Virus record (IMG/VR): IMGVR_UViG_3300020347_000033
Coordinates: 1 to 24,366 of that record
Direction: 5' to 3' (one strand)
DNA: 24,366 nt
Source: a virus
Shown in pieces: positions 7,141-23,653 of this stretch (position 1 is its first letter; each line of letters opens with the position of its first letter). Position numbers and translations under genes: made by a program. The notes under the pieces were generated by a model, which worked only from the letters and a program-made list of their open reading frames with translations, ran no database searches and was not told where the DNA came from.

Positions 7141-8090
7141 TGAATTTATTTAAAGAACGTACACACTATAAACCATTTACATATGACTGGGCATTTGAGT
7201 CTTATGATATGCAACAGAAAATGCACTGGCTACCGTCAGAAGTTTCATTGCATGAAGATGTAAGAGACTGGAATGAAAGACTTACAGATTCAGAAAAGAA
7301 CTTAATTAATCAAATACTAAAATTCTTTACACAGGGAGATGTAGACATAGCTAAGGCTTACTTAGATAAATACTTACCTAAGTTTAAAGTACCTGAAGTA
7401 CGTATGATGTTGACTTCTTTTGCAGCAAGTGAAGCTAATCATGCACATAGTTATTCTATGTTAAATGACACATTAGGTTTACCTGAGTCAGAGTTTAAAG
7501 CATTTCAAGAATACAAAGAGATGGCTGATAAACATAAGTATCTATTTAAAGATAAAGGAAAAGGAGTAGAAGGACTAGCTAGAGACATAGCTTGTTTTTC
7601 AGCGTTTGGTGAGGGACTACAACTGTTCGCTTCTTTTGTTATGTTACTTAACTTTCAACGCTTTGGTCGTATGAAAGGGATGTGTCAGATAGTAACGTGG
7701 TCAATACGTGATGAGTCACACCATGTAGAGAGTATGATTAAACTGTTTAAAGAAATGATTAAAGAGAATCCAAGTGTGTGGAATGATGATTTCAAAGCTA
7801 CCATCTATCAAACCTGTAGAGATATGGTTGAGCTAGAGGATAAGTTTATTGACCTAGCATTTGAGCAAGGGGGTATTCGTGGGCTAGAACCTAAGGAAGT
7901 TAAGCAATACATAAGGTACATTGCTGACCGTAGGCTGTTACAACTATCATTGAAACCTAACTACAAAGTAAAAGATAACCCATTAGAGTGGTTAGACTGG
8001 GTGCTTAATGGTGTTGAACATGCTAACTTCTTTGAAAATAGAGCAACTGAATACAACAAAGGAACAATAACTGGTACACTGTGGGATTAA
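7140..8090 (+). CDS. nrdB: Class I ribonucleotide reductase, small (beta) subunit
   Basis: The 316-residue subunit carries the metal centre and tyrosyl radical that activate the large subunit. All metal ligands are visible: Asp67, Glu98 and His101 in ASEANHAHSY, Glu158 in FGEGLQL, and Glu192 and His195 in RDESHH. Tyr105 stands at the place of the E. coli radical Tyr122, so this looks like an active tyrosyl-radical enzyme rather than a Tyr-less variant. The start at 7140 shares its A with the nrdA stop (TAATG) and has GAGGG at 7132-7136. An in-frame upstream ATG at 7119 lies inside nrdA and would add seven unrelated residues. The gene ends immediately before the candidate late promoter at 8088. 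Confidence 0.95.
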   Translation: MNLFKERTHYKPFTYDWAFESYDMQQKMHWLPSEVSLHEDVRDWNERLTDSEKNLINQILKFFTQGDVDIAKAYLDKYLPKFKVPEVRMMLTSFAASEANHAHSYSMLNDTLGLPESEFKAFQEYKEMADKHKYLFKDKGKGVEGLARDIACFSAFGEGLQLFASFVMLLNFQRFGRMKGMCQIVTWSIRDESHHVESMIKLFKEMIKENPSVWNDDFKATIYQTCRDMVELEDKFIDLAFEQGGIRGLEPKEVKQYIRYIADRRLLQLSLKPNYKVKDNPLEWLDWVLNGVEHANFFENRATEYNKGTITGTLWD

Positions 8091-8110
8091 AGTACCCGTT
8101 TTAGAAGGAT
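8088..8110 (+). promoter_or_regulatory. Candidate phage late promoter (copy 1)
   Basis: This 23-base element starts in the nrdB stop codon and matches the element at 23631-23653 at 21 of 23 positions; the shared core is AGTACCCGTYTTAGAAGRAT. It lies between the DNA-metabolism genes and the head genes, where T7 has phi6.5. Its length and its T/A-rich stretch followed by a G/A-rich start region (TTTTAGAAGG) recall single-subunit RNA polymerase promoters, with initiation perhaps at G8104. The end of the element also supplies the ribosome binding site (AGAAGGA) of the next gene. Confidence 0.6.
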
Positions 8111-8115
8111 AAAAT

Positions 8116-8316
8116 ATGTTTATAAAAGATATAGTAGGTAAGGATGAAGAAGAAACCACCCTACCTAAGACAGTACCACAGTTTATTAAGCTGTTAAATA
8201 GTTTATACCCTGAGCAATCACCTGATATCTCAGATGAAATGAAGGACATATACTTCAAGGCTGGACAACGTGATGTTGTTCGCTTTATTAACCAACTGAA
8301 GGAAAGAGATAAATAA
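8116..8316 (+). CDS. Hypothetical protein at the head of the late operon (66 aa)
   Basis: I do not recognise this protein. It is a small, charged, probably helical soluble protein, with segments TVPQFIKLLNSLYPEQS and a C-terminal helix around AGQRDVVRFINQLKERDK. No membrane segment or motif is seen. AGAAGGA at 8103-8109 precedes ATG 8116 at good spacing. It is the first gene after the candidate late promoter and shares its stop with the next start (TAATG at 8314-8318). The T7 genes in this position (6.5, 6.7, 7) are small and include virion components, so a minor virion or assembly role is possible but unproven. Confidence 0.75.
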   Translation: MFIKDIVGKDEEETTLPKTVPQFIKLLNSLYPEQSPDISDEMKDIYFKAGQRDVVRFINQLKERDK

Positions 8317-8534
8317 TGTGTATAGGCAAAGCAATGCAAACAGGGATGTACAGTAAACCAGCACCAACAACTACAACCACTGTCTCTTCCCCTAAAGAAG
8401 ACCAAGCTACAGACAAAACTAAAAAAGCTAGAGTCAAAACTAAAGGTACAGGAAAGCTTAATAATCCAGCATTGGGTACAAGTGATTTAAACAAGTCAAA
8501 CGCTGGCTTACAAATTCCAACTAGAAATCAATAA
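8316..8534 (+). CDS. Small basic protein, Met-Cys start, gp7.3-like paralogue (72 aa)
   Basis: This low-complexity protein begins MCIG, has a Thr/Pro-rich segment (PAPTTTTTVSSP), then a lysine-rich stretch (DKTKKARVKTKGTGKL), and ends near GLQIPTRN. The next protein has the same layout: MC-x-G start, Pro-rich segment, lysine-rich segment and GLSIPT near the end. The two are therefore probably an old tandem duplication. T7 gp7.3, a tail-assembly virion protein from the same region, also has a basic, glycine-rich C-terminus, which makes a relation possible. AAGGAAAGAG upstream and the TAATG overlap support the start. Confidence 0.7.
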   Translation: MCIGKAMQTGMYSKPAPTTTTTVSSPKEDQATDKTKKARVKTKGTGKLNNPALGTSDLNKSNAGLQIPTRNQ

Positions 8535-8543
8535 GGAGATAAT

Positions 8544-8768
8544 ATGTGCACAGGTAGTCCAAGAGTTTCAACGCCACCACCAGCACCTACTCCAGCTCCA
8601 CCTATCGCTTCACCATCAGGAGATGAGATAGCACCAACACTTAAGGTAGCTGAAGAGAAGTTAACTGACGAAGAAAGAAAAAAGAAAGCCAAACGTAAAG
8701 GTACAAAAGCTTTACAAACAACAGGCTTATCTATTCCTACTTCAGGTTCAGGATTAAACATTAGTTAA
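8544..8768 (+). CDS. Small protein similar to T7 gp7.3, Met-Cys start (74 aa)
   Basis: The protein starts MCTG, continues with a strongly Pro-rich segment (STPPPAPTPAPP), then a charged region (EEKLTDEERKKKAKRKGTK), and ends SGSGLNIS. T7 gp7.3, a small tail-assembly protein coded just before the portal, has a matching end: a basic run (RKKARAGGKKS) followed by SSGGGINI. Position, size and C-terminal similarity together suggest a gp7.3-like role, at moderate confidence. AAGGAG precedes ATG 8544. It resembles the preceding 72-residue protein in layout, so the pair looks duplicated. Two bases separate it from the portal start. Confidence 0.72.
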   Translation: MCTGSPRVSTPPPAPTPAPPIASPSGDEIAPTLKVAEEKLTDEERKKKAKRKGTKALQTTGLSIPTSGSGLNIS

Positions 8769-8770
8769 TT

Positions 8771-10318
8771 ATGCAAGAGATGATGAAAGAGACAGCGAAA
8801 CAACGCTATGAAAAGCTACAAGCAGATAGACAACATTATCTAGACAGAGCCCGTGAGTGCTCAGAACTTACAATACCAACCCTTATTCCTGACGAAGGCT
8901 TCGAGTCAAGCTCAGAACTATATACCCCATTTCAATCAGTGGGAGCACGAGGTGTTAACAACCTAGCTTCCAAACTTCTATTATTATTATTACCACCCAA
9001 CTCACCTTTCTTTAGGTTATCTTTATCAGGTAAAACTAAAGAGGAACTAGAGCAGAACCCTGAATTACAATCTGAAATTGAGAAGTCTCTAGCCAAAATT
9101 GAGCGTGAGATACACAAGAAGATAGAGAACTTAGCACTTAGAGTATCTGTATTTGAAGCACTAAAACATCTTATTGTAAGTGGTAATGTACTAACATATC
9201 TACCTAAGAAAGGCAACATGCGTGTGTATGGTATAACACAATTTGTGTGCAGACGTGATGAAGATGGTAATTTATTAGAAGTAATTATTAAAGAAAGCAT
9301 TAGTCCAGTAGCACTAGATGAAGAGACACTACAAATTATAGGTAAATATCCTGATTACAAAGAAGATGAGGACTGTGAGATATATACTCATATATACAGA
9401 TTACCTGACGGCAAGTACTATGTATGTCAAGAAGTTATGGGACACAAGATACCAAGCTCAGTAGGTACATACCCAGCAGACAACATGCCTTACCAAGCAT
9501 TACGTATGGTAAGAGTAGATGGTGAAGACTACGGTCGTGGTTATGTAGAGGAATTTCTAGGAGACCTAAGGTCACTAGAGGGACTATCACAATCACTAGT
9601 AGAATCATCAGCAGCTGCGAGTAAAGTAGTATTTATGGTACGCCCTAACGCTGTGACCCGTAAACGAGATTTGGCTAACACTAGAAACGGGGACATAATT
9701 ACAGGACAAAGAGACGACGTAACATGTTTGCAAACTGAGAAGCAATATGATTTAGGTATTGTAGAACGTAGCATAGGACGTTTAGAAGAACGTATGTCAT
9801 ACGCTTTCTTATTACACACAGCAATACAAAGAGACGCTGAACGTGTTACAGCACAAGAGATTAGATACATGGCTGAACAGTTAGAGACTAGTATGGGTGG
9901 TATATACTCATTATTATCTCAAGAGTTTCAGTTACCATTAGTACAAGTATTAATGAAACGTATGTCTCAATCCAATGAGATACCAAAGCTTCCAAAAGAT
10001 TCTGTAGCACCTACTATTATCACAGGTATAGAAGCTTTAGGACGTGGTAATGACCTACAGAAACTAAGAGAATTTGTTATGGAGATAGGACAGCTAGCTC
10101 AGATTAGCCCTGAAGTAGTACAGATATTAAACCCTAATGACCTGATTACTCGTGTTGCTACCAGCTTAGGTATTGATACTGAAGGATTAATTAAGAGTGA
10201 AGAGCAACTAGCTCAAGAGCAAGAAGCTGCTCAACAACAAATGCAGCAGCAACAAATGATGGATATGGCACAGGATGTAGTACAACCTGTTGCTAATAAC
10301 ATGACCAAACCACAATAA
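8771..10318 (+). CDS. 8: Portal (head-tail connector) protein, T7 gp8 type
   Basis: The 515-residue protein would form the dodecameric ring through which DNA is packaged and ejected; T7 gp8 has 536 residues. Similarity to T7 is clear throughout: YEKLQADRQHYLDRARECS near the N-terminus, VGARGVNNLASKL, FEALKHLIVSGNVLTYLP, ALRMVRVDGEDYGRGYVEE, ERVTAQEIRYMAEQLE, GGIYSLLSQEFQLPLV and APTIITGIEALGRGNDL. The C-terminus is glutamine- and methionine-rich, as in T7. No strong ribosome binding site precedes ATG 8771. In-frame ATGs follow at 8780 and 8783, and the latter has AAGAG just upstream, so the true start may be four residues later. Confidence 0.96.
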   Translation: MQEMMKETAKQRYEKLQADRQHYLDRARECSELTIPTLIPDEGFESSSELYTPFQSVGARGVNNLASKLLLLLLPPNSPFFRLSLSGKTKEELEQNPELQSEIEKSLAKIEREIHKKIENLALRVSVFEALKHLIVSGNVLTYLPKKGNMRVYGITQFVCRRDEDGNLLEVIIKESISPVALDEETLQIIGKYPDYKEDEDCEIYTHIYRLPDGKYYVCQEVMGHKIPSSVGTYPADNMPYQALRMVRVDGEDYGRGYVEEFLGDLRSLEGLSQSLVESSAAASKVVFMVRPNAVTRKRDLANTRNGDIITGQRDDVTCLQTEKQYDLGIVERSIGRLEERMSYAFLLHTAIQRDAERVTAQEIRYMAEQLETSMGGIYSLLSQEFQLPLVQVLMKRMSQSNEIPKLPKDSVAPTIITGIEALGRGNDLQKLREFVMEIGQLAQISPEVVQILNPNDLITRVATSLGIDTEGLIKSEEQLAQEQEAAQQQMQQQQMMDMAQDVVQPVANNMTKPQ

Positions 10319-10331
10319 AGGAGAAAAATAA

Positions 10332-11072
10332 ATGGTAGAACAAATAGTAGTACAAGCAGATGAAACTACAGCAGAAGCCCCCGCAGTAGAAGAACAAGTA
10401 GAAGGTTCTAAACCTGAAGGCTTGCCTGAAAAGTTTAATTCTGTAGAAGACATGGCTAAATCATACGCTGAATTAGAAGCTAAATTAGGACAACCTAAAG
10501 AAGAAGCTAAGGAAGAAGCGAAGGCTGAAGAACAACCTAAGAGTGATTTAGAGATTAAAGCTGATGAAGCTGTTGAGTCTGCTGGACTTGACATGGATTC
10601 ACTAAGTGCAGAGTATGCTGAAAGTGGACAACTAGCTGATGAGTCTTATGAAAGATTAGAGAAAGCTGGTATCAGTAGAGATATCGTAGACCAGTTTATT
10701 GCTGGACAAGAAGCTAGGGCATTACAACAAGGCACTGAAGTCAAAGGCTTAGTAGGTGGAGAAGAAGCTTACGTAGAAATGACTCAATGGGCTGGACAAA
10801 ATTTAACTGAAGCTGAACAGATAGCTTATAACAACGCTGTTAACAGTGGTGATATGGAAACTATCAAGTTAGCTGTTACTGGTTTACAAGCTAGATACAC
10901 AGCAGCTGAAGGAAGTGACCCTAAATTGCTATCAGGTAAAGCTGGTGCTACTTCACAAGGTGGTTATGAATCATGGGCTCAAGTACAAGCTGACATGGGT
11001 GACCCAAAGTATGCTAAAGACCCAGCGTTTCAAGCTGAAGTACAAGAGAAATTAGCAAACAGTAACTTATAG
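10332..11072 (+). CDS. 9: Capsid assembly (scaffolding) protein, T7 gp9 type
   Basis: The 246-residue protein is very acidic and helix-rich, lies between portal and capsid genes, and is preceded by AAAGGAG. Scaffolding proteins of this family direct procapsid assembly and leave before or during packaging. The N-terminal third is rich in Glu/Ala, with a short pattern typical of the family (GLPEKFNSVEDMAKSYAELE) followed by a Lys/Glu run (KEEAKEEAKAEEQPK). The C-terminal part (GGYESWAQVQADMGDPKY) would contact the shell. T7 gp9 is longer (about 307 residues). Assignment relies on position, composition and the SVEDMAKSYAELE segment. Confidence 0.9.
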   Translation: MVEQIVVQADETTAEAPAVEEQVEGSKPEGLPEKFNSVEDMAKSYAELEAKLGQPKEEAKEEAKAEEQPKSDLEIKADEAVESAGLDMDSLSAEYAESGQLADESYERLEKAGISRDIVDQFIAGQEARALQQGTEVKGLVGGEEAYVEMTQWAGQNLTEAEQIAYNNAVNSGDMETIKLAVTGLQARYTAAEGSDPKLLSGKAGATSQGGYESWAQVQADMGDPKYAKDPAFQAEVQEKLANSNL

Positions 11073-11082
11073 GAGACACACA

Positions 11083-11139
11083 ATGGCATATGGTAAACCA
11101 ATGAAAAAAGGTAAGACTAAAAAAAGAGGTAAATGTTAA
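11083..11139 (+). CDS. Very short basic peptide (18 aa)
   Basis: An 18-residue frame, MAYGKPMKKGKTKKRGKC, starts at ATG 11083 behind a good AGGAGA and ends sharing its stop with the next start (TAATG at 11137-11141). Half of the residues are Lys or Arg. Its ribosome binding site and coupling to the next gene make it more likely to be translated than a chance frame, but nothing else confirms it. Two more basic proteins follow. It may be a minor DNA-binding or virion peptide, or simply a leader that couples translation. Confidence 0.55.
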   Translation: MAYGKPMKKGKTKKRGKC

Positions 11140-11288
11140 TGGCTAAACGTGGACTATACGCAAATATAAATGCACGTAAGAAAGCTGGAACAAGTAGACC
11201 CAAGTCTAAATCTACTATCAGTAAGAAAGCTTATTCTAATATGAAAGCTGGTTTTCCTAAAAAGAAAACAGTGAGGAAGAAAAAGTAA
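11139..11288 (+). CDS. Small basic protein of unknown function (49 aa)
   Basis: This 49-residue protein starts MAKRGLYANINARKKAG and ends in a Lys/Arg run (FPKKKTVRKKK). About a third of its residues are Lys or Arg, and there are no acidic residues. AGAGG at 11125-11129 and the TAATG overlap support the start. The N-terminal pattern (K-R-G-L-Y-A-N-I, then basic residues) is one I associate with small phage proteins coded near capsid genes, though I cannot verify it here. Such composition suggests binding to DNA or RNA, perhaps inside the virion or procapsid. Confidence 0.72.
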   Translation: MAKRGLYANINARKKAGTSRPKSKSTISKKAYSNMKAGFPKKKTVRKKK

Positions 11289-11531
11289 ATGCCAGCAAAG
11301 AAACACCAAAGCCCTAGTGGCGGATTAAATGCCGCTGGTAGACGTTATTACAAACGTAAGACTGGGGCTAATCTTAAAGCACCTGTAACAGGGAAAGCTA
11401 AGAAAGGCTCTAAAGCAGCTGGAAGACGTAAAAGCTTCTGTGCACGGATGGGTGGTGTTAAAGGTGCAATGAAAAAACCAAATGGAAAGCCAACACGTAA
11501 GGCTCTAGCTTTACGTAAATGGAAGTGCTAA
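11289..11531 (+). CDS. Small basic protein, DUF6321-like (80 aa)
   Basis: The protein is very basic and contains conserved-looking blocks: SPSGGLNAAGRRYYKRKTG, NLKAPVTG, GRRKSFCARMGGVKG, and a C-terminal KPTRKALALRKWKC. I recognise this block pattern as that of a phage family I recall as DUF6321, with no known function. Two cysteines (CARM and the C-terminal Cys) are notable. GAGG lies 12 bases before ATG 11289, which directly follows the previous stop. It is the last and largest of three consecutive basic proteins between the scaffold and capsid genes, a place where T7 has nothing comparable. Nucleic-acid binding is likely from charge alone. Confidence 0.85.
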   Translation: MPAKKHQSPSGGLNAAGRRYYKRKTGANLKAPVTGKAKKGSKAAGRRKSFCARMGGVKGAMKKPNGKPTRKALALRKWKC

Positions 11532-11532
11532 T

Positions 11533-11560
11533 AGCTGTGCTATCTCGTTAGATGGCAGCT
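11533..11560 (+). promoter_or_regulatory. Hairpin in the capsid gene leader
   Basis: AGCTG pairs with CAGCT and CTATCT pairs with AGATGG (one G-T wobble) around a CGTT loop, with a two-base bulge, giving about 11 base pairs. It starts two bases after the stop of the 80-residue basic protein and lies in the 131-base gap before the capsid gene, the longest gap in the window. No T-run follows, so it is not a standard terminator. T7 has a promoter and an RNase III processing site in the matching place, so an mRNA processing or stability role is possible. Confidence 0.45.
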
Positions 11561-11579
11561 GCCAACAAGTAGTAGTAAC

Positions 11580-11600
11580 TTGACCTTCTGCGGAAGACAA
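11580..11600 (+). promoter_or_regulatory. UNCG-type tetraloop hairpin in the capsid gene leader
   Basis: CTTC and GAAG flank TGCG, which matches the very stable UNCG tetraloop class with a C-G closing pair. TTG and CAA outside extend the stem across a small internal loop. The hairpin lies about 60 bases before the capsid start. It may protect the abundant capsid mRNA or mark a cleavage site. The bases ACC, TCT and GAAG in this stretch loosely resemble the candidate promoter motif, but the spacing differs. Confidence 0.35.
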
Positions 11601-11662
11601 TCTTGGGGACGAAACTTAGAGGCGTTCAACAACAACTAAACTACAACCAAAGGAGATTTATT

Positions 11663-12646
11663 ATGGCAAATGCTAGTCCAGTATCTGTCGGTAAAATCAA
11701 CGCTGGTGGTTCAGAAGACGCTCTATTTCTTAAAGTATTTTCAGGCGAAGTTTTAACTTCATTTGAACGTGCTTCAGTAACTCAAGGAGCTGAAACTGTC
11801 CGTACAATCAGTAATGGTAAAAGTGCACAATTCCCTGTAATGGGCAGAATTGACGCTTCTTATCATACAGCTGGTACAGAAATCACTGGTAGTGACGTAA
11901 ACCACAACGAGAAAATCATAACAATCAATGACTTATTGATATCTTCTGTTTTTCTTTCTAACATAGAAGAAGCAAAGAATCATTATGATGTTAGAGGTTC
12001 TTATTCATCCGAAATCGGTAGAGCATTGGCTTTCCAAAAAGATAAGCACATTCTACAAACAATCGGACAAGCGGCTCAGGCTTCTGCAAACGTATCTGAT
12101 TCAGGCTACGCTTCAGGAACTGTCCTAACAAACACTTCAATCGCTAGTGCTACAGCTTCTACAGCTGCTAACGCTGTGATTGATTCACTCTTCGACGCTG
12201 CTAAACAGCTTGACGCAAACTTTGTGCCAAGAGAAGGACGTAAGTGCTTCATCAGACTTGAAGAGTATTATAAATTAGCAAACGCTACTAACGCTGTGAA
12301 TGTTGACTTTAGTGGTCAAGGTTCTATTGCTGAAGGAAAAGTATTGAAGATTGCTGGTATTGAATTAGTACCAACACCACACTTTGTGGCTTCAGACTTC
12401 TCAGCTTCAACAAACGTTGATGGTGGTTCTGCTACAGCTGGTGGTTCAAATCCACAACAAGTTAACTTAGCTAACTATGTTGCATTGGTTTGCCATCCTT
12501 CAGCTGCGGGTACTGTTAAGCTCATGGACTTAGCAACTGAAATGGAATATGACATAAGACGTCAAGGTACATTGATGGTAGCTAAATATGCTATGGGTCA
12601 CGGAGTGCTCCGTCCTGAAGCGTCTGTAGGTATTAAAGAAGCTTAA
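11663..12646 (+). CDS. 10: Major capsid protein, T7 gp10A type
   Basis: The 327-residue shell protein (T7 gp10A has 345) aligns with T7 along its length: ALFLKVFSGEVLTSFERASV, TISNGKSAQFPVMGR, EKIITINDLLISSVFL, IEEAKNHYDVRGSYSSE, AGTVKLMDLATEMEY and the C-terminal AKYAMGHGVLRPEA. The start at ATG 11663 is chosen because AGGAG lies at 11651-11655 and the T7-like sequence begins shortly after. A longer frame from TTG 11603 would add 20 unrelated residues and has no matching ribosome binding site. No T7-like frameshift site for a 10B-type extension is obvious near the end. A hairpin terminator follows 22 bases after the stop. Confidence 0.97.
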   Translation: MANASPVSVGKINAGGSEDALFLKVFSGEVLTSFERASVTQGAETVRTISNGKSAQFPVMGRIDASYHTAGTEITGSDVNHNEKIITINDLLISSVFLSNIEEAKNHYDVRGSYSSEIGRALAFQKDKHILQTIGQAAQASANVSDSGYASGTVLTNTSIASATASTAANAVIDSLFDAAKQLDANFVPREGRKCFIRLEEYYKLANATNAVNVDFSGQGSIAEGKVLKIAGIELVPTPHFVASDFSASTNVDGGSATAGGSNPQQVNLANYVALVCHPSAAGTVKLMDLATEMEYDIRRQGTLMVAKYAMGHGVLRPEASVGIKEA

Positions 12647-12667
12647 TCGTTTCTTATACTTAACCTT

Positions 12668-12696
12668 GAGGGGATGGCTTATGCTGTCCCCTCTTT
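12668..12696 (+). terminator. Hairpin terminator after the major capsid gene
   Basis: The arms GAGGGGATGGC (12668-12678) and GCTGTCCCCTC (12683-12693) pair over 11 base pairs (two G-T wobbles) around a TTAT loop and are followed by TTT. This is the strongest hairpin I noticed in the window. It lies between the capsid and tail tube A genes, where T7 has its class III terminator T-phi. The short T-run suggests partial termination, which would give high capsid expression with some read-through to the tail genes. Confidence 0.8.
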
Positions 12697-12708
12697 ACTG
12701 AGGAAATT

Positions 12709-13311
12709 ATGGCAACACAAATAACACCAACTACCGAGTTACAAGCTATCAACACTATGCTCTCTGCTATTGGAGAAGCACCTGTTAACTCAATTAGCGG
12801 CATAACAAACGTAGATGTATCTGTCGCTATAAATATCTTAGATGAAACTAGCCTTTCTGTACAAAGTGAAGGCTGGAACTTTAACACAGAATACAATGTA
12901 ACTTACTCAATAGATGATGATAGTAAGATTCCATTACCTTCCAACTGCGTCCAAGCTGACGCTCATGCAACACACAGATATCAAAACGTAGTAATACGTG
13001 ATGGTAAGCTGTATGACCTAGATAAACACACTGACGTTTTTACAATCGTCCCACCATTAGATGTTGTATTAGTACAACAATTTGAACAACTACCTGAATA
13101 CGCTAGACGCTATATTACAGTAAAAGCCGCTAGACGTTTTGCAGCTAGATTTATCGGTGACGCTGGTTTATCTGAACTAATGAGCATAGATGAACAGGAA
13201 GCTTATAATAACTTTAAGCAGTCTGATTCTAGAAGTGAAGATGTAAACATACTAGAAGGTGACGCAAATACATATTCTATAATTAACAGACCACCTAGAA
13301 GGACTTATTAA
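12709..13311 (+). CDS. 11: Tail tubular protein A, T7 gp11 type
   Basis: The 200-residue protein (T7 gp11 has 196) would form the gatekeeper ring between portal and nozzle. Typical segments are ELQAINTMLSAIGEAPVNSI at the N-terminus, a central SEGWNFNTEYNVTY with IPLPSNCVQAD, and LPEYARRYITVKAARRFAARF, the basic helix region of this family. GAGGA at 12700-12704 precedes ATG 12709. It is the first gene after the capsid terminator, and its stop overlaps the next start as TAATG at 13309-13313, so it is coupled to its partner tail tube B. Confidence 0.94.
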   Translation: MATQITPTTELQAINTMLSAIGEAPVNSISGITNVDVSVAINILDETSLSVQSEGWNFNTEYNVTYSIDDDSKIPLPSNCVQADAHATHRYQNVVIRDGKLYDLDKHTDVFTIVPPLDVVLVQQFEQLPEYARRYITVKAARRFAARFIGDAGLSELMSIDEQEAYNNFKQSDSRSEDVNILEGDANTYSIINRPPRRTY

Positions 13312-15797
13312 TGGCAGTAGTTTCACAGTCGATACCTAATTTCCTGAATGGCATAAGTCAACAGACCCCTACACAACGTGGTATTAATCAAGGGACTGAA
13401 CAGATTAACTGTCAGAACAACATAATTAAAGGCTTAGGCAAACGCCCACCTTCAGAATATATAGCTACAATAGACAGTACAAATGTGTTTCCTAACACTA
13501 CAAAAATATGGAACATACAAAGAGATGAAAACAATAAGTACATTGTTGCATTTTACAATGGTGGGGTAAAAGTTTTTGACTTACAAGGTAATGAGAAGAC
13601 TGTAAGCTACCCTGATGGCACATCTTATCTTACCACTACCAATCCTAAGAACGACCTTAAGATGGTTAACATTGCAGATTTTACTTTTGTATCTAACAAA
13701 TCTATTACACCAGCACAAAGTGGTTCAACTACAGCAGCTAAAGTAGAATACTTTTACGTGGTATTTAAGGTAACCAACTTTGGTAGAGAGTACGCAATAC
13801 ATCTTACTCACCCTGATTTACCATACGGTATCAACGCTATTATACAAATGCCTGACGGTAGTGACGCTAACCATGACACAGAGTTTAGAGACACAGCAAA
13901 ACTAATAGATATCTTTAGATATGGAACTGGTAGTCAATATTGGAACGCTTCATCTAGTATAGAATTTAAACTTACTAGAGCAGACACTGGAGCAACATTA
14001 ACTAGCTCACAAGGACTTTCTAATTACAGTGGAGTTACAGCAGAGTTTACATTTACAGAACACCAGTCTTCACTGCGTGGTTATGTAGTAGACCAAAACG
14101 CTAGCTACACAGTAGAAACACATGATGGTGCTGGTAATGCTGAACTATATGCTGTTAAAGATGAAATACAAGATTTTACTAAGTTACCTTATTATGCAAA
14201 GTTAAATGACAAGATTAAAGTAACAGGTGACGCTGGTGATACTACATCAGATTACTATGTTAACTATGTAGGCAATGGTGTATGGGAAGAGTGTATAGCA
14301 CCTAACACAAGTACAGGTCTAAATGACACTACAATGCCACATGCTCTTATTAATAATAATGATGGCACATTTACATTTGCTAAACAAAGTTATACAAACA
14401 GAGACGCTGGGGATGATACCACAAACCCTGACCCTTCATTTGTAGGACAGAAAATACAAAACCTTACATTCTATAAAAATAGACTAGGTATATTAGCTGG
14501 GGAGAATTTAATATTATCAGGAAATGCTGATTTCTTTAATTTCTTTGCAACAACAGTAACACAAGTATTAGATACAGATGTTATAGATGTAGCAGCTTCA
14601 GGTACAACTGTTAACGTATTAAGAAATTCAATATCATTTAACGAGACCTTACTGTTATTCTCCGACACATCACAGTATAAACTCGCTTCAGCAGCTGAGA
14701 CAATTACCCCAACCTCAGCTGTGTTAAATGAAGTATCAACATTCTCACACAATGCTAATGTAACACCTGTAGCTTCAGGTAGATATGCTTACTTCTCACA
14801 AGTACGTAATGCAAACACAGCAGTAAGAGAATATTATTCAGACAATGATACACTAACTAATGACGGTTTAGATGTTACTGTTGCGGTACAAACTTTAATA
14901 CCTGACAATGCTTATTCAATATTGAGTAACACAACAGAAGATTCTTTGATAGTGCTGTGTTCAGATACAGCTGACACTCAGACAGCACCATACACTACAG
15001 GAACAGCTGTATCACCTACCAATGCCAACACAATGTATATGTACAAATACTTCTTTGATAGAGGTGAGAAAGTACAAACAGCGTGGTCTAAATGGGAATT
15101 TGATGGTACTAAAATAATAGGTGGCATGGTAGATAATAGTTATATTTATCTATTTGTAGTAGAAGAAACAGACACAAAGTTACTACGTATTGACTTACAA
15201 GATTTATCAGATTCCACTATAGGTCATAATGTTTATGTAGACCTTAAGAAATCTGTAACTGGAACTTATGATTCAGGTACTGACCTTACTACATTCACTA
15301 GCCCATATGGAGCTAAGACAGGATTACTAGCTGTAAATGCTAGCACAGGAGCTGATTACACAGCAACAAATACCACAGGTTCAACATACACACTAGAAGG
15401 AAATCACACTAGTTTAATTATAGGTGTGCCTTATGAATCTAAATATACACTATCACCACAGTACGTAAGAGAAGCTTCAGGACAAGGTTCAATAGCTGTA
15501 ACTTCAGGTAGATACCAAGTGCGTACTATATCGTTTGATTATGAAAACAGTGGGTTTTTTAAAGTAGAAGTAACACCTGAGAATAGAGATACATATACTA
15601 CATTTATGAATGGTTATATTATTGGTTTATCAGGAGCAGTAGATAACCCAGCGATTTCGTCAGGTACTATTATTGTCCCTGTACAAAGTAGAAATACATT
15701 ATTTACATTAGATATAAAGAGTAGCTCACACTTACCTATGTTTATTCCTAGTGCTGAAGTGGAAGGTTACTACCACAGACGTTCTAGGAGAATATAA
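13311..15797 (+). CDS. 12: Tail tubular protein B (nozzle), T7 gp12 type
   Basis: The 828-residue protein (T7 gp12 has 794) would form the hexameric tail nozzle. The N-terminus SQSIPNFLNGISQQTPTQRG, with RPPSEYIATI, is typical of the family. Later come the conserved FYKNRLGILAGENLILSGN and a C-terminal VEGYYHRRSRRI. The body is mainly beta-stranded and rich in Thr, Ser and Asn, as expected of a beta-propeller nozzle. The start overlaps the tail tube A stop, and AGAAGGA is upstream. I see no sign of a frameshift or insertion. Confidence 0.95.
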   Translation: MAVVSQSIPNFLNGISQQTPTQRGINQGTEQINCQNNIIKGLGKRPPSEYIATIDSTNVFPNTTKIWNIQRDENNKYIVAFYNGGVKVFDLQGNEKTVSYPDGTSYLTTTNPKNDLKMVNIADFTFVSNKSITPAQSGSTTAAKVEYFYVVFKVTNFGREYAIHLTHPDLPYGINAIIQMPDGSDANHDTEFRDTAKLIDIFRYGTGSQYWNASSSIEFKLTRADTGATLTSSQGLSNYSGVTAEFTFTEHQSSLRGYVVDQNASYTVETHDGAGNAELYAVKDEIQDFTKLPYYAKLNDKIKVTGDAGDTTSDYYVNYVGNGVWEECIAPNTSTGLNDTTMPHALINNNDGTFTFAKQSYTNRDAGDDTTNPDPSFVGQKIQNLTFYKNRLGILAGENLILSGNADFFNFFATTVTQVLDTDVIDVAASGTTVNVLRNSISFNETLLLFSDTSQYKLASAAETITPTSAVLNEVSTFSHNANVTPVASGRYAYFSQVRNANTAVREYYSDNDTLTNDGLDVTVAVQTLIPDNAYSILSNTTEDSLIVLCSDTADTQTAPYTTGTAVSPTNANTMYMYKYFFDRGEKVQTAWSKWEFDGTKIIGGMVDNSYIYLFVVEETDTKLLRIDLQDLSDSTIGHNVYVDLKKSVTGTYDSGTDLTTFTSPYGAKTGLLAVNASTGADYTATNTTGSTYTLEGNHTSLIIGVPYESKYTLSPQYVREASGQGSIAVTSGRYQVRTISFDYENSGFFKVEVTPENRDTYTTFMNGYIIGLSGAVDNPAISSGTIIVPVQSRNTLFTLDIKSSSHLPMFIPSAEVEGYYHRRSRRI

Positions 15798-16274
15798 ATG
15801 GCATACGTAAGACCAGCAATCAGTGTAGACATTGCTTATCTTGCACCTAAAATGAGGCAAGCAGATAAGGATGAAATTTGGGCGTCAGATAGACTGACAA
15901 CTGGAGAAGCACTTATGCAACCCTTTCAACATAAAGGAAGTAAAACATGGTGTGTTATTGGGACAGAAGAAGAGTATGTTATCGGAATGTTTGGTAGCGT
16001 GCCTTCGTTAGATAAAGATTATGGGGTCGCATGGTTATTAGCCAGTGATGAGTTATTTAATTACAAGAAAGAATTTATAAAACAATCACCTGAATGGGTG
16101 GCACAAATGGGAAAAGGTTATAAATATTTATATAACTATGTAGATGTCCGAAATGACAAGTCTATTAAATGGCTTAAACATTTAGGATTTAAAACAATAA
16201 GACTAGAGGAACAATATGGCAAAGGTAAAATGCCATTCTATTTAATGATGAAGGAGATAATATGTGTGGCTTAG
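15798..16274 (+). CDS. 13: gp13-like protein with GNAT-like pattern
   Basis: The 158-residue protein lies where T7 has gene 13 (138 residues, needed for virion assembly). Similarity is modest but present at the end: KYLYNYVDVRNDKSIKWLKHLGFKTIRLEEQYGKG compares with T7 segments LWNYVWVGNTSHIRFLKTIGA and EEYTRDGQ. The N-R-x-S-I-x-W-L-x-x-L-G-F pattern is that of the C-terminal half of GNAT acetyltransferase folds. A clear acetyl-CoA-binding loop is not obvious, so enzyme activity is doubtful. AGGAGA precedes ATG 15798. The 3' end overlaps the next gene by 13 bases and contains its ribosome binding site. Confidence 0.82.
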   Translation: MAYVRPAISVDIAYLAPKMRQADKDEIWASDRLTTGEALMQPFQHKGSKTWCVIGTEEEYVIGMFGSVPSLDKDYGVAWLLASDELFNYKKEFIKQSPEWVAQMGKGYKYLYNYVDVRNDKSIKWLKHLGFKTIRLEEQYGKGKMPFYLMMKEIICVA

Positions 16275-16906: not shown

Positions 16907-19020
16907 TGGCATATGAATCTAAAGTAACAAACAAATACTTCGGCACTACATTTGCTGGTGCTGGTAAAGCGTCTGTAGAAACTGATGGTTTAATGGAAGC
17001 CCTTAAAACTGTTTCTCCAAAGTTACAAGAAATGGGCTCTTCTTATGTAGAAAGACAACAAAAAGAAGCTGAATTAGAACTGTCTAAACTACAAGCTTCA
17101 GGTAAATCACTTGAAGATATACAAAAAATTATTACTTCAGGTGAGAACGAACAGCTGAATAGTATGTATGCAACAGCTACTAATGATATGTGGATGGGTA
17201 AAACACAGGCGGCTAAAGATTGGCAGTCAGTGTTGGCTAACCAAGATAACTATGACCCTAAGTCACAGAGTGCTGAAGAATTTTTAAATGAACATGTAAC
17301 AGCAGATTTTGATACAGGTGGTAAATATTTCTCAGGTGCTTATGCTTCTGTTTGGAATGAAAAAAAATCATCTTTTCTAACACAAGACGCTCAGAGTAGA
17401 TTTGAGGTTAGAAACAAAGAAGAGATAGATAGTATGTCTGACTTTATAAAAATATATCAAGGGACAGAAAACGGTGTAACAATCGCACAGCGTCTAGAAA
17501 CAAAACAAAATAGTGATGGCAAACCACCTACCCCTAAACAAATTAACGCAGCTATCTTACAAGGGACTGAACAACTTATAGAATTAGGTGACTATGATAG
17601 AGCCGAAAGTTTCTTAAAGTCACACAGAGGCTACAACGGTAAGATGGAAGTTAAATCATTGTTGGATTCAGGTAATGCAAAAGCACATGATTTAATGAAG
17701 CAAATTAGGGTTGCTAGGAACACCAAAGTAATTGCAGATGCCAAAGCTAGTAAAGATGAAATTAAACGTAGAGGTGATGTTTTATTGTCACAATATGCTA
17801 CAGGTGAAAAAGAAGGCGGAATTAAATTAACAATGGAAGAACAAGAAGCAGTTAAGAGAGAACTTATGACACCCGACCATATCGCTAGATTTAATTTGTT
17901 TGAAAAAATAGTAAGTAAATCAGGGAGTGTTATGAACAGTCCTATTGTAATGGAAAATTTAAAAAGTGAAATGTTAAGTAAGAACTTTATTGGAAGTGAC
18001 ACTGGTTTTGATGCCTATTTACAATTTTTAGCAGACAGGGGACAGACACTGACACCTAGTCAAGCAAATGATTTAAGTAGATATTTTTCTAAAGCTCAAG
18101 AAGCTTTTCGTGAGGGATATTCTGTTGAAAGTCAACCACAAGTTATAAATACCATAAATAGATTAAACCAAGAATTTGTACCATCTAGTAAAGAGTATGA
18201 CCGAAAAAAACAAGATGTTCTTTTTAAACACATAGAAGACCATGTAAACATGGAAATCAAAAAGTGGATGACAGAAGACATGGAAAACATACCTATGCCA
18301 AAAGGAGCGTCTTTAGAAGCAAAAAACGCTTACGATACACGTATTAAAAATAAGCTTAACGAGATTTATAATAACATTGCAGTTACATTTGACCCTAAAT
18401 CTCAACTAAGAGTCCATGCTGAAACAAGAGGGACAATTCTTGACTTTGACAAAGAAGAAACAAGAGTAAACATGCTAAGAGCCTCTTCTCAAATATTTAA
18501 AAATCTTATAGAACCTGAAGCTACTCAAGGCACTATAGGTGAATATGAGACAATTAATAAACTTGTTGAAGAATCTGAACGCTCAGGAGTACCTATTCCA
18601 AAACTTATTAAACAATCCAGCCAGTTTGAAGAAGCTATAAGATTAGCTAAAGGAAAAATGAATCGTGAAGATTTAGATTTATTAGCAATTCAAATTATGG
18701 ATGATTACAACATCACAGATAACACACAAGCATTACAAGAACGTGCAAAATATACTACAGATAAATTCAATCAACTAAAAAATATAGACATGGATGAGGG
18801 TGATTTAGGTGTTGTACAAACAGTTATTGATGCTTTTACTGATTCAGATGAAGTACGCCAAGCACAGCGTGTCCAAGAAACTTTAAGTGATTTATTAGGC
18901 TATGAAGTTTCAGGTAAATATTTATTAGGTGGAATAGAAGAAAGTGAATTAGAAGAGGTGGCAGACAAGTTTGGCATACCATTTGAAGAGTTTAAAAATG
19001 TTTTAAGGAGAATTAGATAA
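16906..19020 (+). CDS. 15: Internal virion protein C, T7 gp15 type
   Basis: The 704-residue protein (T7 gp15 has 747) lies between gp14 and gp16 equivalents and should form part of the periplasmic ejection tunnel. It is largely alpha-helical and strongly charged, with a helix after the N-terminus (YVERQQKEAELELSKLQASG) followed by tunnel-type segments such as AKDWQSVLANQDNYDPKS. Direct sequence similarity to T7 is weak, so the call rests mainly on order, size and composition. I see no lytic transglycosylase motif. AGGAG at 16891-16895 precedes the start, and the stop overlaps the next start as TAATG. Confidence 0.88.
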   Translation: MAYESKVTNKYFGTTFAGAGKASVETDGLMEALKTVSPKLQEMGSSYVERQQKEAELELSKLQASGKSLEDIQKIITSGENEQLNSMYATATNDMWMGKTQAAKDWQSVLANQDNYDPKSQSAEEFLNEHVTADFDTGGKYFSGAYASVWNEKKSSFLTQDAQSRFEVRNKEEIDSMSDFIKIYQGTENGVTIAQRLETKQNSDGKPPTPKQINAAILQGTEQLIELGDYDRAESFLKSHRGYNGKMEVKSLLDSGNAKAHDLMKQIRVARNTKVIADAKASKDEIKRRGDVLLSQYATGEKEGGIKLTMEEQEAVKRELMTPDHIARFNLFEKIVSKSGSVMNSPIVMENLKSEMLSKNFIGSDTGFDAYLQFLADRGQTLTPSQANDLSRYFSKAQEAFREGYSVESQPQVINTINRLNQEFVPSSKEYDRKKQDVLFKHIEDHVNMEIKKWMTEDMENIPMPKGASLEAKNAYDTRIKNKLNEIYNNIAVTFDPKSQLRVHAETRGTILDFDKEETRVNMLRASSQIFKNLIEPEATQGTIGEYETINKLVEESERSGVPIPKLIKQSSQFEEAIRLAKGKMNREDLDLLAIQIMDDYNITDNTQALQERAKYTTDKFNQLKNIDMDEGDLGVVQTVIDAFTDSDEVRQAQRVQETLSDLLGYEVSGKYLLGGIEESELEEVADKFGIPFEEFKNVLRRIR

Positions 19021-22000
19021 TGAGTGAAGAAAATCGTTATGATTTACCCCCTATAGAAGTAGATGAAAAACCTGAACCTTTAAATCTTCCTGAAAGCAGA
19101 CAGCGTTTAAATAGAAAAGAAAGACGAAGAAATGCAAGAGAAAGAAGAGAATATGATGATTCAGAAGGAATAGAAAGAGAACAAAATGCTTTAGAAAAGC
19201 TTGAGTCTCCTTATATTTTAAATGAAGTGTTGCCTCGTTTTTATGAAAAACAATACGGTAAAGACATTAGTGATTTAACTGATTTAGAAAAAATAAGTTT
19301 ATATTATGAAGATAGAATAGGTGCATACCATAATACTTATAAAGCTGGAGACGAAATTTATGAAATGAAATATGGTAAAAACGCTAAAGATAATGAGCAT
19401 AGAGCCGACTGGGCGGAACTGACTCAATTGTATGAGGACATTCCTTCATTTGGTGGTGGTCAAATAGGTTTTATGGAATGGGCATACCATTTTCTACCTG
19501 AGTTTACACTTAAAGACCCTACGTTTTATATAGGAATAGGAGCTGGTAAACTAGCAACAAGCATGGGCAAATCAAAAGCTATTAAAGAAGCTGTTGATAC
19601 AGTCAAAGAAGAAATTGCCAAAGCACAAATTAAAGCTAAAACAGGTAAAGAAACTGTAACATTAACAGATGATGAAATTATAAAAAACTTAGACCCCAAT
19701 CTTTTAAAAAACCAAATGTTTAAAAAAACTTTAAAATGGTCAGCTGCTGTAGATGGTGGAAGTGGATTAGCCATTGGAATGTTACACGACGCTCACGCTC
19801 AGTATTCAGAAATAGAAGCGGGACTAACAGGTGATTCTTTTGATAGATGGCGTATGCTAAAAAACGGAGTAGTAACGGGGAGTATAGGTGTACTCACTTC
19901 AGGAACAATATCAGGATTATCTTTAAAAGGAAGTATATCTAGATATTATGATGACCCTGAAACAGGTTTTTTAAGAGATGTTAAACAAGAGTTAGGTGAT
20001 TTAGATTTTGAAAACAATGTTAGTTATCAATTTAATTCAAAAACTGGTGAGATAGATGTTTTTCCACCTACTAAACGTGAGCAAACATCATTAGGTTCTA
20101 CTGTAGAAACTAAAGATAAATCTGTTGGTGTTGTTACTAAAATGTCTAAAGACGGTAAAAAAGCTACAGTGCAATTTGCAGATGAAGATGGAAAAGTAAC
20201 AACTAAAACTTTTAATACTGAAAATGTTAAATTTGTTAGTAAACCTGAGGCAAGCACAGACCCCAATGTTTTACCGCCTAGCTTATCTAAAGCTTCTCCT
20301 AGATATAACTATGGACAGACACCTATAGATTTAGACTTTGAAGATGACATAACAAAAGCTTTATATATTGTTGGGGGTAAAGGACAGAGTGCAAAGCACG
20401 CTGACTATCTAGCTTTTCTAGATAACGCTGGTGTTGAAAACATTACAGAAGAAGCAGCAAAAGTCCGTAAACAAATAAAAGACGCAGCTAAAGCTGGTGA
20501 AACTAGCGTGACTGTTAAAAAGCAATATAAACAAAAATCATTAGATATTAAAAAACCTGATGAATCTCCATTGATACAAAAGAAAGCTGAAGAAATTAAA
20601 AGGTCTACAGAGTTTTTAAATTGGGAAAAAATAGATGCAAACCCTGAATATAAAAATGCACTTAAACAAATAATGACTGACCTTGCTGAAAAAGGAATTA
20701 TAAGAGGTTCTTCTAGAAAACACTTAATAAAATTTATGGAAGAAAGAGGCAAAGAATTACAACAACATGACATGGATTATGTTTTTAAAAAACTAAAACA
20801 AATGTCAGACATGGGAGATGATGCTGGGGCTATAAAATTAGCAGCAGACATGGATTTTTTAGCCAGTGTTTCTGACTTTAAAAAACTTAGAGACATGATA
20901 GACGAAGCAGTCACAGATGTTGAAAAAGTTAAATTAGCTGAAGTGATGAAAGACGCTGTTATTAAATTAGGGGAGAAAGCCTCAATTACAACAGGAGCAA
21001 CAACCGCAGCTTCAGATATTATGCAGTCAGGTAAAATTATTAAAAACCTTAGTGAAGCTGAAAAGTTAAAATTAGAAAGACGTAAAATACTGGGTGAAGA
21101 AATTATACCTGATTTAAAAGTTGCCCTTATAGAAATGACACCTGACCAACAAATAGCAACTTTAGCTAAATTAGGTGAGCATATGGATAACCCATTCATG
21201 TTACAAAAGTTAAATCACATAGCTAAATTAAAAGCTGGTAGTGATGATGTTACTTTTGGTCAAGCTTTTAATGAAGTAATAACAGGTAATTTATTGTTAG
21301 ATTATTCTACCCATGTTATTAACGGCAGTAGTGCGGGAATAAAAACTGCTACGACACGAGTAGAAGATTATGCTGGTGGTCTTCTTTATTTTGGAAAAAC
21401 AGGAAGCATAGACTTACTAAGAATGATGAATGATGTAAACATGACAAATAAATTTGTTTATGGGGCTGCTCTTGAAGATGCCTTATTAGCTTTTAAATTA
21501 CAACGAAATGTTGGAGACGCACTGGAGCATAAGTTTGACCAGCCCCGTCAATTAATGGCTAATACATATCTTGAACAACACGCTAAAAGTAAAAACATAG
21601 TAAGAAAAACTCTTTTAAATCCTTATATAAGTACAATGGCTAAGTTTTCTAACTTTGCTTTTAAAACACTAGGAATGGAAGACACGTTTATAAAAGCATT
21701 AACTAACCGTGCTTATAGGATAGCTCATGTAAATCAGCGTATGCGTAAGTTTTACCCTGAGTTATGGAAACAAAAACCTAAAGATGTCACTAAAACTTTA
21801 GGGGAAGTACAGAAGATTAAAAATCTTAAAAGAGATAATAACTATGAACTATCTTTGGATAACCCTGATTATAAAAAAATACAAGCTAACAATGACCTAA
21901 TAAAAGACATTGAACCATTAATAGATAACAGTGATTTTGCTAAAAAATATCGTGAGTTGTTTTATCAATATGAAGATGAGTTTGGTAATTGGAGATTTAT

Positions 22001-23633
22001 AAAAGATTTTAGTGAGGATGAAGCAAGCTCATTAGATGATTTAACTAAGTCTATGGCATACGACCCTATGTACGTGGCAAGGGAAAACACTTTTACTAAC
22101 AATCCAGCTAGAGAAATTTTTGAGCCTTCACAATTCTTCCCTAAACAAACGCCTAATGATATGAACATTAGTGGATGGGCAATGACACAAGCTAATAAAA
22201 AAGGTGGGGCATGGGTAAGAGTTTTTAGTGGATTACACTTTATGAAAACACCTAATAATCTTGTAAAAGATTTTGCTGTGCGTACACCAGCCATTAATTT
22301 ATTGACCAGTGATTGGCATAAAATGATGAAAGCAGAAGACCCTATTGTTAGAAATAAAGCACATGCAATTACGTCTATAGGGATGTTAGCAACTGCTGCC
22401 GCTTATTATACGTTTAGTCCTGATAATTACATTGGAATGGGACACCCTGACCCTAAAAAACGACATACTTTTACATTTACAGAAGATGTTACAGACGAAG
22501 ATGGAAACACAAAACAACTAATACACTCTGTTAATATAGGTAAATATTTGCAGTTTGCCCCACAAATAGAACTGGCGGCAGACCTTCATTATATTGATGA
22601 TACTATTGCAAACATGTCACAAGACCCTATTTACTCTGCTGATATTCAATTAATCGAAGCTGCTTTAAGTGAACATTTTCAACAAAGAGCAGCATACATG
22701 AACCACAGGATTTCTAATCAAATGTTTTTTAGAGAGTTTTCTAATATGTTGTCAATTATAACAAAACCTGATTCTAGTCTAAGTTATAAATTAGAAAGTT
22801 TTGCTAATAATTTTGCTGCTAAATTAGTACCAGCTTCAACATTATCACGTTCTATAAATAGAACAATGGCTGAGGCTCGCCCTGAAATTGATACTATGAG
22901 GAAAAAACTTATTGACTCTACTCCTTACTCACTAATTAAATATGTTGATGAAGAAATGTTAGGGGGCAAAATGAAAGGTTACTATGCAGATATGGCAGCT
23001 CCACAACGAGATATCTTTCACAATCCTTTTCCACCTAAAAGTGCTTTACACGCTATTCCAATGGAAGGAGCATTAAGTAATTTAATTTATGATAGAAAAG
23101 GCAACAAGATTGACTTTAGTAAACCACAGGCTGAAACATTAATACAAGTTATACAAACATCAAATATATCACCTATGGCAGATGTCTATAAACTTAAAGG
23201 CACTGGTAAATATACAAAAGCACTGGAACTAAGAGAATATGAAATAGAATCTTTTACTCAAGAGGATGGAAGCGGGTATGAATTTGTAAGTAAAATTGAT
23301 ATGCCTGAACACACAAGCTTGTATCAAGGAATGAAAATAATAGCTAGAAATATTACACTCAGTGAATATGATGACAGGACTTTAAATGAACAAATAGCTT
23401 ATGAAATTACTCAACCATATTCTACATTCAACACTCAAAAAAGAAACAACAGAATGATAGCGGGAGAATATGAAGGGGGAGCATATATTAAACAAATACT
23501 TAATGATTATAATGAAGCTGCTAGAGACCACATGAAAGCACAGTTTAAATTTAAAATAGGTGGAAACATTAGAACAATAGACGGGTTAGATACTGAAACA
23601 GAATCTATACTACAAAATCTTTTAGAACAGTAA
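19020..23633 (+). CDS. 16: Giant internal virion protein D, T7 gp16 type
   Basis: This 1537-residue protein is longer than T7 gp16 (1318) and occupies its place at the end of the ejection-protein operon. Known relatives form the inner core and enter the cell with the DNA. An Arg-rich N-terminal helix (about residues 28-46, with RKERRRNARERR) precedes LEKISLYYEDRIGAYHNTY. At 368-408 a GVVTKMSKDGKKATVQF segment with alternating strands looks like an SH3/Tudor-type barrel. Small-residue hydrophobic stretches occur near 285-300 and 1113-1128 (ITSIGMLATAAAYY). T7 gp16 begins with a lytic transglycosylase domain, but I see no matching catalytic motif here. AAGGAG precedes ATG 19020, and the stop is also the start of the candidate promoter at 23631. 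Confidence 0.9.
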   Translation: MSEENRYDLPPIEVDEKPEPLNLPESRQRLNRKERRRNARERREYDDSEGIEREQNALEKLESPYILNEVLPRFYEKQYGKDISDLTDLEKISLYYEDRIGAYHNTYKAGDEIYEMKYGKNAKDNEHRADWAELTQLYEDIPSFGGGQIGFMEWAYHFLPEFTLKDPTFYIGIGAGKLATSMGKSKAIKEAVDTVKEEIAKAQIKAKTGKETVTLTDDEIIKNLDPNLLKNQMFKKTLKWSAAVDGGSGLAIGMLHDAHAQYSEIEAGLTGDSFDRWRMLKNGVVTGSIGVLTSGTISGLSLKGSISRYYDDPETGFLRDVKQELGDLDFENNVSYQFNSKTGEIDVFPPTKREQTSLGSTVETKDKSVGVVTKMSKDGKKATVQFADEDGKVTTKTFNTENVKFVSKPEASTDPNVLPPSLSKASPRYNYGQTPIDLDFEDDITKALYIVGGKGQSAKHADYLAFLDNAGVENITEEAAKVRKQIKDAAKAGETSVTVKKQYKQKSLDIKKPDESPLIQKKAEEIKRSTEFLNWEKIDANPEYKNALKQIMTDLAEKGIIRGSSRKHLIKFMEERGKELQQHDMDYVFKKLKQMSDMGDDAGAIKLAADMDFLASVSDFKKLRDMIDEAVTDVEKVKLAEVMKDAVIKLGEKASITTGATTAASDIMQSGKIIKNLSEAEKLKLERRKILGEEIIPDLKVALIEMTPDQQIATLAKLGEHMDNPFMLQKLNHIAKLKAGSDDVTFGQAFNEVITGNLLLDYSTHVINGSSAGIKTATTRVEDYAGGLLYFGKTGSIDLLRMMNDVNMTNKFVYGAALEDALLAFKLQRNVGDALEHKFDQPRQLMANTYLEQHAKSKNIVRKTLLNPYISTMAKFSNFAFKTLGMEDTFIKALTNRAYRIAHVNQRMRKFYPELWKQKPKDVTKTLGEVQKIKNLKRDNNYELSLDNPDYKKIQANNDLIKDIEPLIDNSDFAKKYRELFYQYEDEFGNWRFIKDFSEDEASSLDDLTKSMAYDPMYVARENTFTNNPAREIFEPSQFFPKQTPNDMNISGWAMTQANKKGGAWVRVFSGLHFMKTPNNLVKDFAVRTPAINLLTSDWHKMMKAEDPIVRNKAHAITSIGMLATAAAYYTFSPDNYIGMGHPDPKKRHTFTFTEDVTDEDGNTKQLIHSVNIGKYLQFAPQIELAADLHYIDDTIANMSQDPIYSADIQLIEAALSEHFQQRAAYMNHRISNQMFFREFSNMLSIITKPDSSLSYKLESFANNFAAKLVPASTLSRSINRTMAEARPEIDTMRKKLIDSTPYSLIKYVDEEMLGGKMKGYYADMAAPQRDIFHNPFPPKSALHAIPMEGALSNLIYDRKGNKIDFSKPQAETLIQVIQTSNISPMADVYKLKGTGKYTKALELREYEIESFTQEDGSGYEFVSKIDMPEHTSLYQGMKIIARNITLSEYDDRTLNEQIAYEITQPYSTFNTQKRNNRMIAGEYEGGAYIKQILNDYNEAARDHMKAQFKFKIGGNIRTIDGLDTETESILQNLLEQ

Positions 23634-23653
23634 AGTACCCGTCTTAGAAGAAT
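23631..23653 (+). promoter_or_regulatory. Candidate phage promoter before the tail fibre gene (copy 2)
   Basis: This element matches the one at 8088-8110 at 21 of 23 positions and again starts in the stop codon of the gene before it. The core is GTACCCGTCTTAGAAGAAT, with possible initiation at G23647. It lies in the 37-base gap before the tail fibre gene, where T7 has phi17. Unlike copy 1, the ribosome binding site of the next gene (GAGG, 23661-23664) is separate from the motif, so ribosome binding does not explain its conservation. Confidence 0.62.

Follow-up and report, generated by a model that had tools for sequence, protein, structure and literature searches.

Predicted promoters for a phage-encoded single-subunit RNA polymerase in a Pelagivirus-like phage fragment and its relatives

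What are the two nearly identical 23-base elements that stand ahead of the late operon (8088-8110) and the tail fibre gene (23631-23653) in the IMG/VR virus record IMGVR_UViG_3300020347_000033? The window considered here is the entire record of 24,366 bases, a fragment of a Pelagivirus-like phage (HTVC019P group, Autographiviridae): its connector protein is 63-75% identical to those of the 30 best-matching phage records, nearly all of them Pelagibacter podophages, and by megablast the window matches 20 phage records, 18 of which are named Pelagibacter phages. A first-pass annotation of the sequence had proposed that the elements are promoters for the phage's own RNA polymerase (RNAP). This proposal is supported by the copies found in relatives, by where they lie, which way they point and how well they are conserved, and by the way in which they vary together with the polymerase specificity loop. 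We consider it highly probable, from sequence comparison, that both are promoters for a T7-type single-subunit enzyme, members of a set that numbers about five to eight in each genome.

The two elements have the coordinates and sequences given in the first annotation and are identical at 21 of 23 positions. Each opens with the TAA stop codon of the open reading frame upstream, that of RNR beta (ribonucleotide reductase beta; 7119-8090) and that of a 1537-residue virion protein gene (19020-23633). When all plus-strand 23-mer pairs of the window at least 60 bases apart were compared, two pairs had at least 21 matches, this one and another that lies beyond 24100, within the tail-fibre repeats; no such pair arose in eight first-order Markov sequences. 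Scanning the window with the core pattern, at up to three mismatches, returned two matches for 0.01 expected, a value that serves as a guide only because the pattern was derived from the pair itself. On these grounds, together with the simulated windows and genomes described below, a chance repeat was rejected.

Homologous gaps were inspected in 13 phage genomes. In relatives the element occupies the late and fibre gaps, with further copies, not the same in every genome, ahead of the RNAP gene, ahead of the SSB gene, inside the exonuclease gene, near the genome end and ahead of the primase gene. The class to which the window belongs (class B) has the form TAAAGT(A/G)CCC..TTTAGAAG in the late and fibre gaps of HTVC109P, HTVC031P, Eistla and HTVC142P, with related forms ahead of SSB and RNAP; in HTVC109P, HTVC031P and others, the fibre copy is set off from the stop codon by a few bases. 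Class A, found in HTVC019P, HTVC022P, HTVC131P, HTVC201P, HTVC304P and S35-C6, has (A/C)CTTACACTTTTAG at the late and fibre positions, and ahead of SSB it reads TTACACTATTAG, so that at all three places a TTACAC core replaces the TACCC of class B. A first plain scan of HTVC019P at up to four mismatches had found no copy because this phage uses class A, as was seen on reading its gaps. HTVC021P has a variant of class A, GTTTCACTTTTAG, and HTVC309P has forms with a CCCC core, CCCCATATTAGAA or CCCCTATTAGAA. Metagenomic relatives with 93-99% primase identity have copies ahead of RNAP, SSB and primase wherever the contig covers these places, and whole metagenomic records also have late, fibre and, judged by distance, genome-end copies. 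In S35-C6 (L030), two tandem class-A copies, 17 bases apart (29311 and 29328), lie past the last late gene.

A scoring matrix was built from 44 distinct sites, none of them from the window, mostly of class B with a few of class A or from HTVC309P. The consensus of the set from -16 to +2 is TAAAGTACCCNTWTTAGA, and the position table of the 44 sites shows A+T-rich bases ahead of a purine start and a conserved specificity box at about -12 to -7. In HTVC031P the predicted starts, 16 nt past the matches, include about 2731, 5242, 15045 and 29799. After the pair and the two weaker copies listed in Table 1, the next window score is 11.3, at 21116, and the best minus-strand score is 1.7; the maximum over 40 simulated windows (one strand each) was 14.0. 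Above 14.5, five related isolates and the window gave 37 plus-strand and 3 minus-strand matches, four of the five isolates having themselves supplied sites to the matrix, against one match in 20 simulated 41-kb genomes read on both strands. The plus-strand matches number eight in HTVC109P, seven each in HTVC031P and HTVC142P, six in HTVC168P, five in Eistla and four in the partial window, and the three minus-strand ones are all near the genome end. HTVC168P, which was outside the matrix and whose near relatives HTVC142P and Eistla were in it, has a site at each of the six expected plus-strand places and one minus-strand copy near its end. No match above 14.5 was found in HTVC010P (34.0 of 34.9 kb) or the first 50 kb of HTVC008M (one match at 13.5), both pelagiphages outside the HTVC019P group, nor in T7, LUZ100, Dev-CD-23823 or HTVC200P, the last of another genus and with one possible site of its own kind ahead of SSB. 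A class-A matrix gave four to six plus-strand and no minus-strand matches in each of seven genomes, counts that are partly circular because it was seeded with typed class-A cores. In HTVC019P, HTVC022P and HTVC131P these matches include a possible copy within the tail tubular A gene, and in HTVC022P the predicted class-A starts include 6689, 16505, 31032 and 41907. Copies on the opposite strand were seen at L036 38835, L202 39034, L032 7349, L039 2565-2580, L079 2889, L092 2539 and L099 1748, some of them just past the end of the late genes and the others upstream of RNAP, in the early region.

Both sites of the window are conserved in relatives. At a score above 11, the late gap has a match in 113 of 122 loci (34 of 40 distinct sequences) and the fibre gap in 18 of 26 (13 of 21), followed by the SSB gap (36 of 73; 24 of 46 distinct), the RNAP gap (24 of 50; 16 of 38) and the primase gap (28 of 91; 14 of 55). 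The late-gap misses are the class-A phages, HTVC309P and two metagenomic loci with a class-A score. Misses ahead of RNAP and SSB were inspected in 14 more distant loci: in the SSB gap, ten have a spacer between core and start that is one base longer (as in AAAGTACCCGTACTTAGAAC) and four have a match past a gene inserted after RNAP, and among eight misses inspected in the RNAP gap seven have the longer-spacer form and one (L073) lacks a copy. This extra base, between the CCC core and TAG, occurs in the RNAP and SSB gaps of L079, L081, L083, L092, L099, L107 and L111; the start site or the tolerance of the enzyme may differ in such variants. In the primase gap most loci lack a copy, the primase copy being a trait of the window's own branch.

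The polymerases of these phages vary along with the sites. In an alignment of RNAP from 56 phages or contigs, the stretch corresponding to T7 residues 743-763, which we take to be the specificity loop contacting the promoter, reads KSKRVK(A/T)ML(M/L)G(E/Q)VIKPR in class B, KSKRV(R/C)SHLMGEVFAPQ in class A and KSKKVKSHLMGEVIQPT in HTVC021P. Five class-B representatives are pairwise 75-100% identical within the loop and 68-83% elsewhere, whereas class-B to class-A pairs are 50-70% identical within the loop and 61-69% elsewhere. The HTVC309P enzyme, 45-47% identical to both classes outside the loop, has 12-13 of 20 loop positions in common with class B and 8-9 of 20 with class A. The class of promoter thus matches the class of the loop for A, B, HTVC021P and HTVC309P, a pattern that co-evolution of promoter and polymerase would predict.

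T7 (NC_001604) is a phage of the same kind, with the same gene order as the window's group, and the two gaps of the window do correspond, as first annotated, to those of its promoters phi6.5 (18545) and phi17 (34566). Taking the group as a whole, the places that match T7 are those before SSB (phi2.5), the late operon (phi6.5) and the tail fibre (phi17) and near the end (phiOR). The first-pass expectation of further plus-strand copies at T7-like places was thus largely borne out by the strand counts above, but the places of phi9, phi10 and phi13 have no counterpart above threshold in the matrix scan of the window, and copies are fewer here than in T7. Counted from the predicted starts G8104 and G23647, the layout is of T7 type, with the upstream stop codon forming its 5' end. 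The predicted late-gap start lies 14 nucleotides (nt) past the stop codon in 111 of 113 scored loci, and in the T7 record 7 of 17 promoters (1.3, 1.5, 1.6, 2.5, 4.3, 9 and 17) start exactly 15 nt past the upstream gene, whose stop codon is therefore the TAA of TAATACGACTCACTATAG. These spacings make it doubtful that the stop-codon bases agree for trivial reasons, as had been assumed; the stop codon probably belongs to the element, and a promoter overlapping it is common to T7 and class B. Likewise, the description of the motif as quite unlike the T7 promoter holds for the core (GTACCC here, CGACTC in T7), but between -16 and +1, counted from the G of TAG, 9 of 17 positions (late) and 8 of 17 (fibre) agree with the T7 consensus. 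The stop codon occupies -16 to -14 here and -17 to -15 in T7, and the start is GA here and mostly GG or GA in T7.

In the scheme that we infer, the phage polymerase would at first be produced by host RNA polymerase and would then recognise the sites, from which it would transcribe the genes for DNA metabolism, the late genes and the tail fibre gene, with transcription probably beginning at the G of each site. Several observations weigh against the promoter reading. The window contains no RNA polymerase gene; single-subunit RNAP is encoded in the relatives examined, and as the window extends from just ahead of the primase-helicase gene into the tail fibre, it begins downstream of the place where this gene is expected. 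The place of T7's phi10, ahead of the major capsid gene, has no copy here, the class-A genomes show no copy before RNAP, and opposite-strand copies recur to which none of the annotated T7 RNAP promoters corresponds. Because homologous sites from close relatives went into the matrix, its scores are not an independent test, and the co-variation of promoter and loop involves few lineages.

Other functions were weighed against that of a promoter for the phage enzyme. It is very unlikely that the elements are host sigma-70 promoters or sites bound by a regulator of the phage or the host: a MarR-family regulator is present in many relatives, but HTVC031P, HTVC142P and HTVC168P, all of class B, keep the motif without an annotated MarR or integrase gene, the element is not palindromic by eye, the motif is absent from HTVC010P, a phage of the same host, and no sigma-70-like site (-35/-10 hexamers, 16-18 nt spacing) occurs in 300 bases around either copy. 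We regard as equally improbable an RNA-level element of messenger RNA (mRNA) leaders, for example a ribosome-binding or processing site. The GAAGGA of the late copy, 7-12 nt ahead of the ATG, may also act as a Shine-Dalgarno sequence, but the distance from element to ATG varies from 1 nt to tens of nt, one copy is intragenic, the RNA at both sites folds no better than shuffles (z +0.84 and +0.40) and the most conserved part would sit upstream of the predicted start. A replication, recombination or packaging signal is the most remote of the candidates, since copies immediately precede the SSB, late and fibre genes and most of them point the same way, even though several genomes have a copy near the end, where T7 has phiOL and phiOR, presumably with a role in replication, and where a copy may have an extra role beside promoter function. 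Terminators were sought at the sites and none was found; a weak terminator-like match lies at 23704-23718, inside the fibre gene.

Table 1. Predicted promoter elements of the window and the class-B sequence proposed for HTVC031P
Feature	Position	Strand	Sequence	Predicted start	Next ATG	Matrix score
Late-operon promoter (predicted)	8088-8110	+	TAAAGTACCCGTTTTAGAAGGAT	G8104	8116	31.2
Tail-fibre promoter (predicted)	23631-23653	+	TAAAGTACCCGTCTTAGAAGAAT	G23647	23671	30.7
Probable weaker promoter inside exonuclease gene, ahead of ribonucleotide reductase genes	4982-5004	+	TAATGTACCCCTCTTAGAACTGT	G4998		17.3
Degenerate copy at primase-helicase gene	198-220	+	TTAAGTACCTCTATAAGAATGGA	G214	216	17.2
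Predicted class-B promoter sequence, proposed template for HTVC031P RNAP			TAAAGTACCCCTTTTAGAAGAGA

The window had been credited with two copies only; both are real, and the two weaker plus-strand copies of Table 1 had been overlooked. Most of the window's nearest relatives have the primase-helicase copy in an intact form, TTAAGTACCCCTATAAGAATG. The site in the exonuclease gene probably is an internal promoter ahead of the reductase genes. It encodes the peptide NVP(L/I)L in 38 of 57 aligned loci, with CCC as the proline codon in 36 of these 38 (window counted, duplicates kept) and CCA in the other two, HTVC201P and HTVC304P, both of class A; CCC is a rare codon, used for 4.9% of the 263 prolines of the window. 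In S35-C6, of class A, the site reads GTT ACA CTT TTA GAC, which is the class-A motif with an altered amino acid. As a point against an internal promoter, the peptide is a different one, and the motif is missing, in six class-B loci (L062-L067) and in several class-A phages. The weak plus-strand match at 21116-21138, inside the large virion protein gene and below the simulated maximum, is probably due to chance.

How closely are these promoters joined to the genes that they would serve? In all seven class-A genomes (7/7, counting the variant HTVC021P) the predicted start lies 1 nt ahead of the annotated ATG of the first late gene, and the primase ATG begins 2 nt past the predicted start base in the window, as it does in most of its nearest relatives; a longer leader, containing GAGG, follows the primase copy in the sister branch L061-L066. 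Either these mRNAs lack a leader or transcription or translation truly starts elsewhere than predicted. It is a tentative idea, to which we give somewhat less than an even chance, that the promoters are built into gene boundaries, running from the stop codon to, in some cases, the next start codon and therefore producing an mRNA with almost no leader, with a further copy accommodated in the exonuclease coding sequence by means of a rare proline codon. If this were true, SAR11 ribosomes would initiate on leaderless phage mRNAs. The annotated GTG starts of Eistla gp39 (L032 23673) and HTVC142P gp22 (L036 13594) fall within the predicted promoter, before the base at which transcription would start, and are probably misplaced.

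Related systems have been described. In LUZ100, a T7-like phage whose layout is related, ONT-cappable-seq has mapped eight phage-specific promoters (PMC10134795; OP329100), several of them, as here, at conserved positions. Their sequence, ATTACCACACAGNTATGGA, is unlike class B and gives no class-B-matrix match above 11, and one of them (phi7) lies ahead of the capsid gene, where the window has none. The cyanophage Syn5 also is a marine phage with a single-subunit RNAP, and one promoter, ATTGGGCACCCGTAA, with the start right after it, is said to serve its whole genome (PMC3950665); by hand comparison only the letters ACCCGT are common, with the CCC 2 nt nearer the start than here, and a Syn5-type promoter was rejected. 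The promoter of Cronobacter phage Dev-CD-23823, tested in vitro, has ACCCCTATA in common with some copies here (PMC12272871); this likeness was set aside, as the rest of the sequence and the specificity loop differ and the class-B matrix finds no match above 11.

For HTVC031P, a promoter predicted by PHIRE has been proposed and used in a polymerase assay (PMC11475235). This 23-mer occurs exactly once in the genome, at 33805 inside gp42, and is not the present motif, which has seven plus-strand matches there. In the same screen only 8 of 26 enzymes were active, for which its authors named incorrect promoter prediction as one of two likely reasons. In public RNA-seq of HTVC022P (class A; PRJNA1253180) the early, middle and late genes form clusters that adjoin one another, RNAP being among the early genes, and the word promoter is absent from the main text of the report. 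A full-text literature search found no account of the motif, the survey of T7-like promoter specificity by Zhu et al. (2025, NAR), which may already list it, lying outside that search. The kind of system is known and ordinary, and the promoter class is without description in the literature searched. For a family of polymerases from phages of SAR11, the most abundant bacteria in the ocean, it would supply the likely promoter sequence, and the two promoter classes with matching loop changes would offer a natural, testable case of polymerase-promoter co-evolution.

Some RNA features of the capsid region were observed in addition. The major capsid gene has a leader (11532-11665 in the window, compared with the corresponding gap of 13 relatives) without a promoter copy but with two conserved hairpins, with compensatory changes in 7 of 11 predicted pairs of the 14-sequence alignment; it is possibly a structured RNA leader. 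It has no Rfam match, nor does any part of the window at gathering cut-offs, and the window sequence taken singly is no more stably folded than its shuffles (z +0.59). A strong hairpin at 12646-12708 (z -4.60) separates the capsid gene from the tail tubular A gene, at the place where T7 has its terminator Tphi (24210), and similar inverted repeats are visible in relatives.

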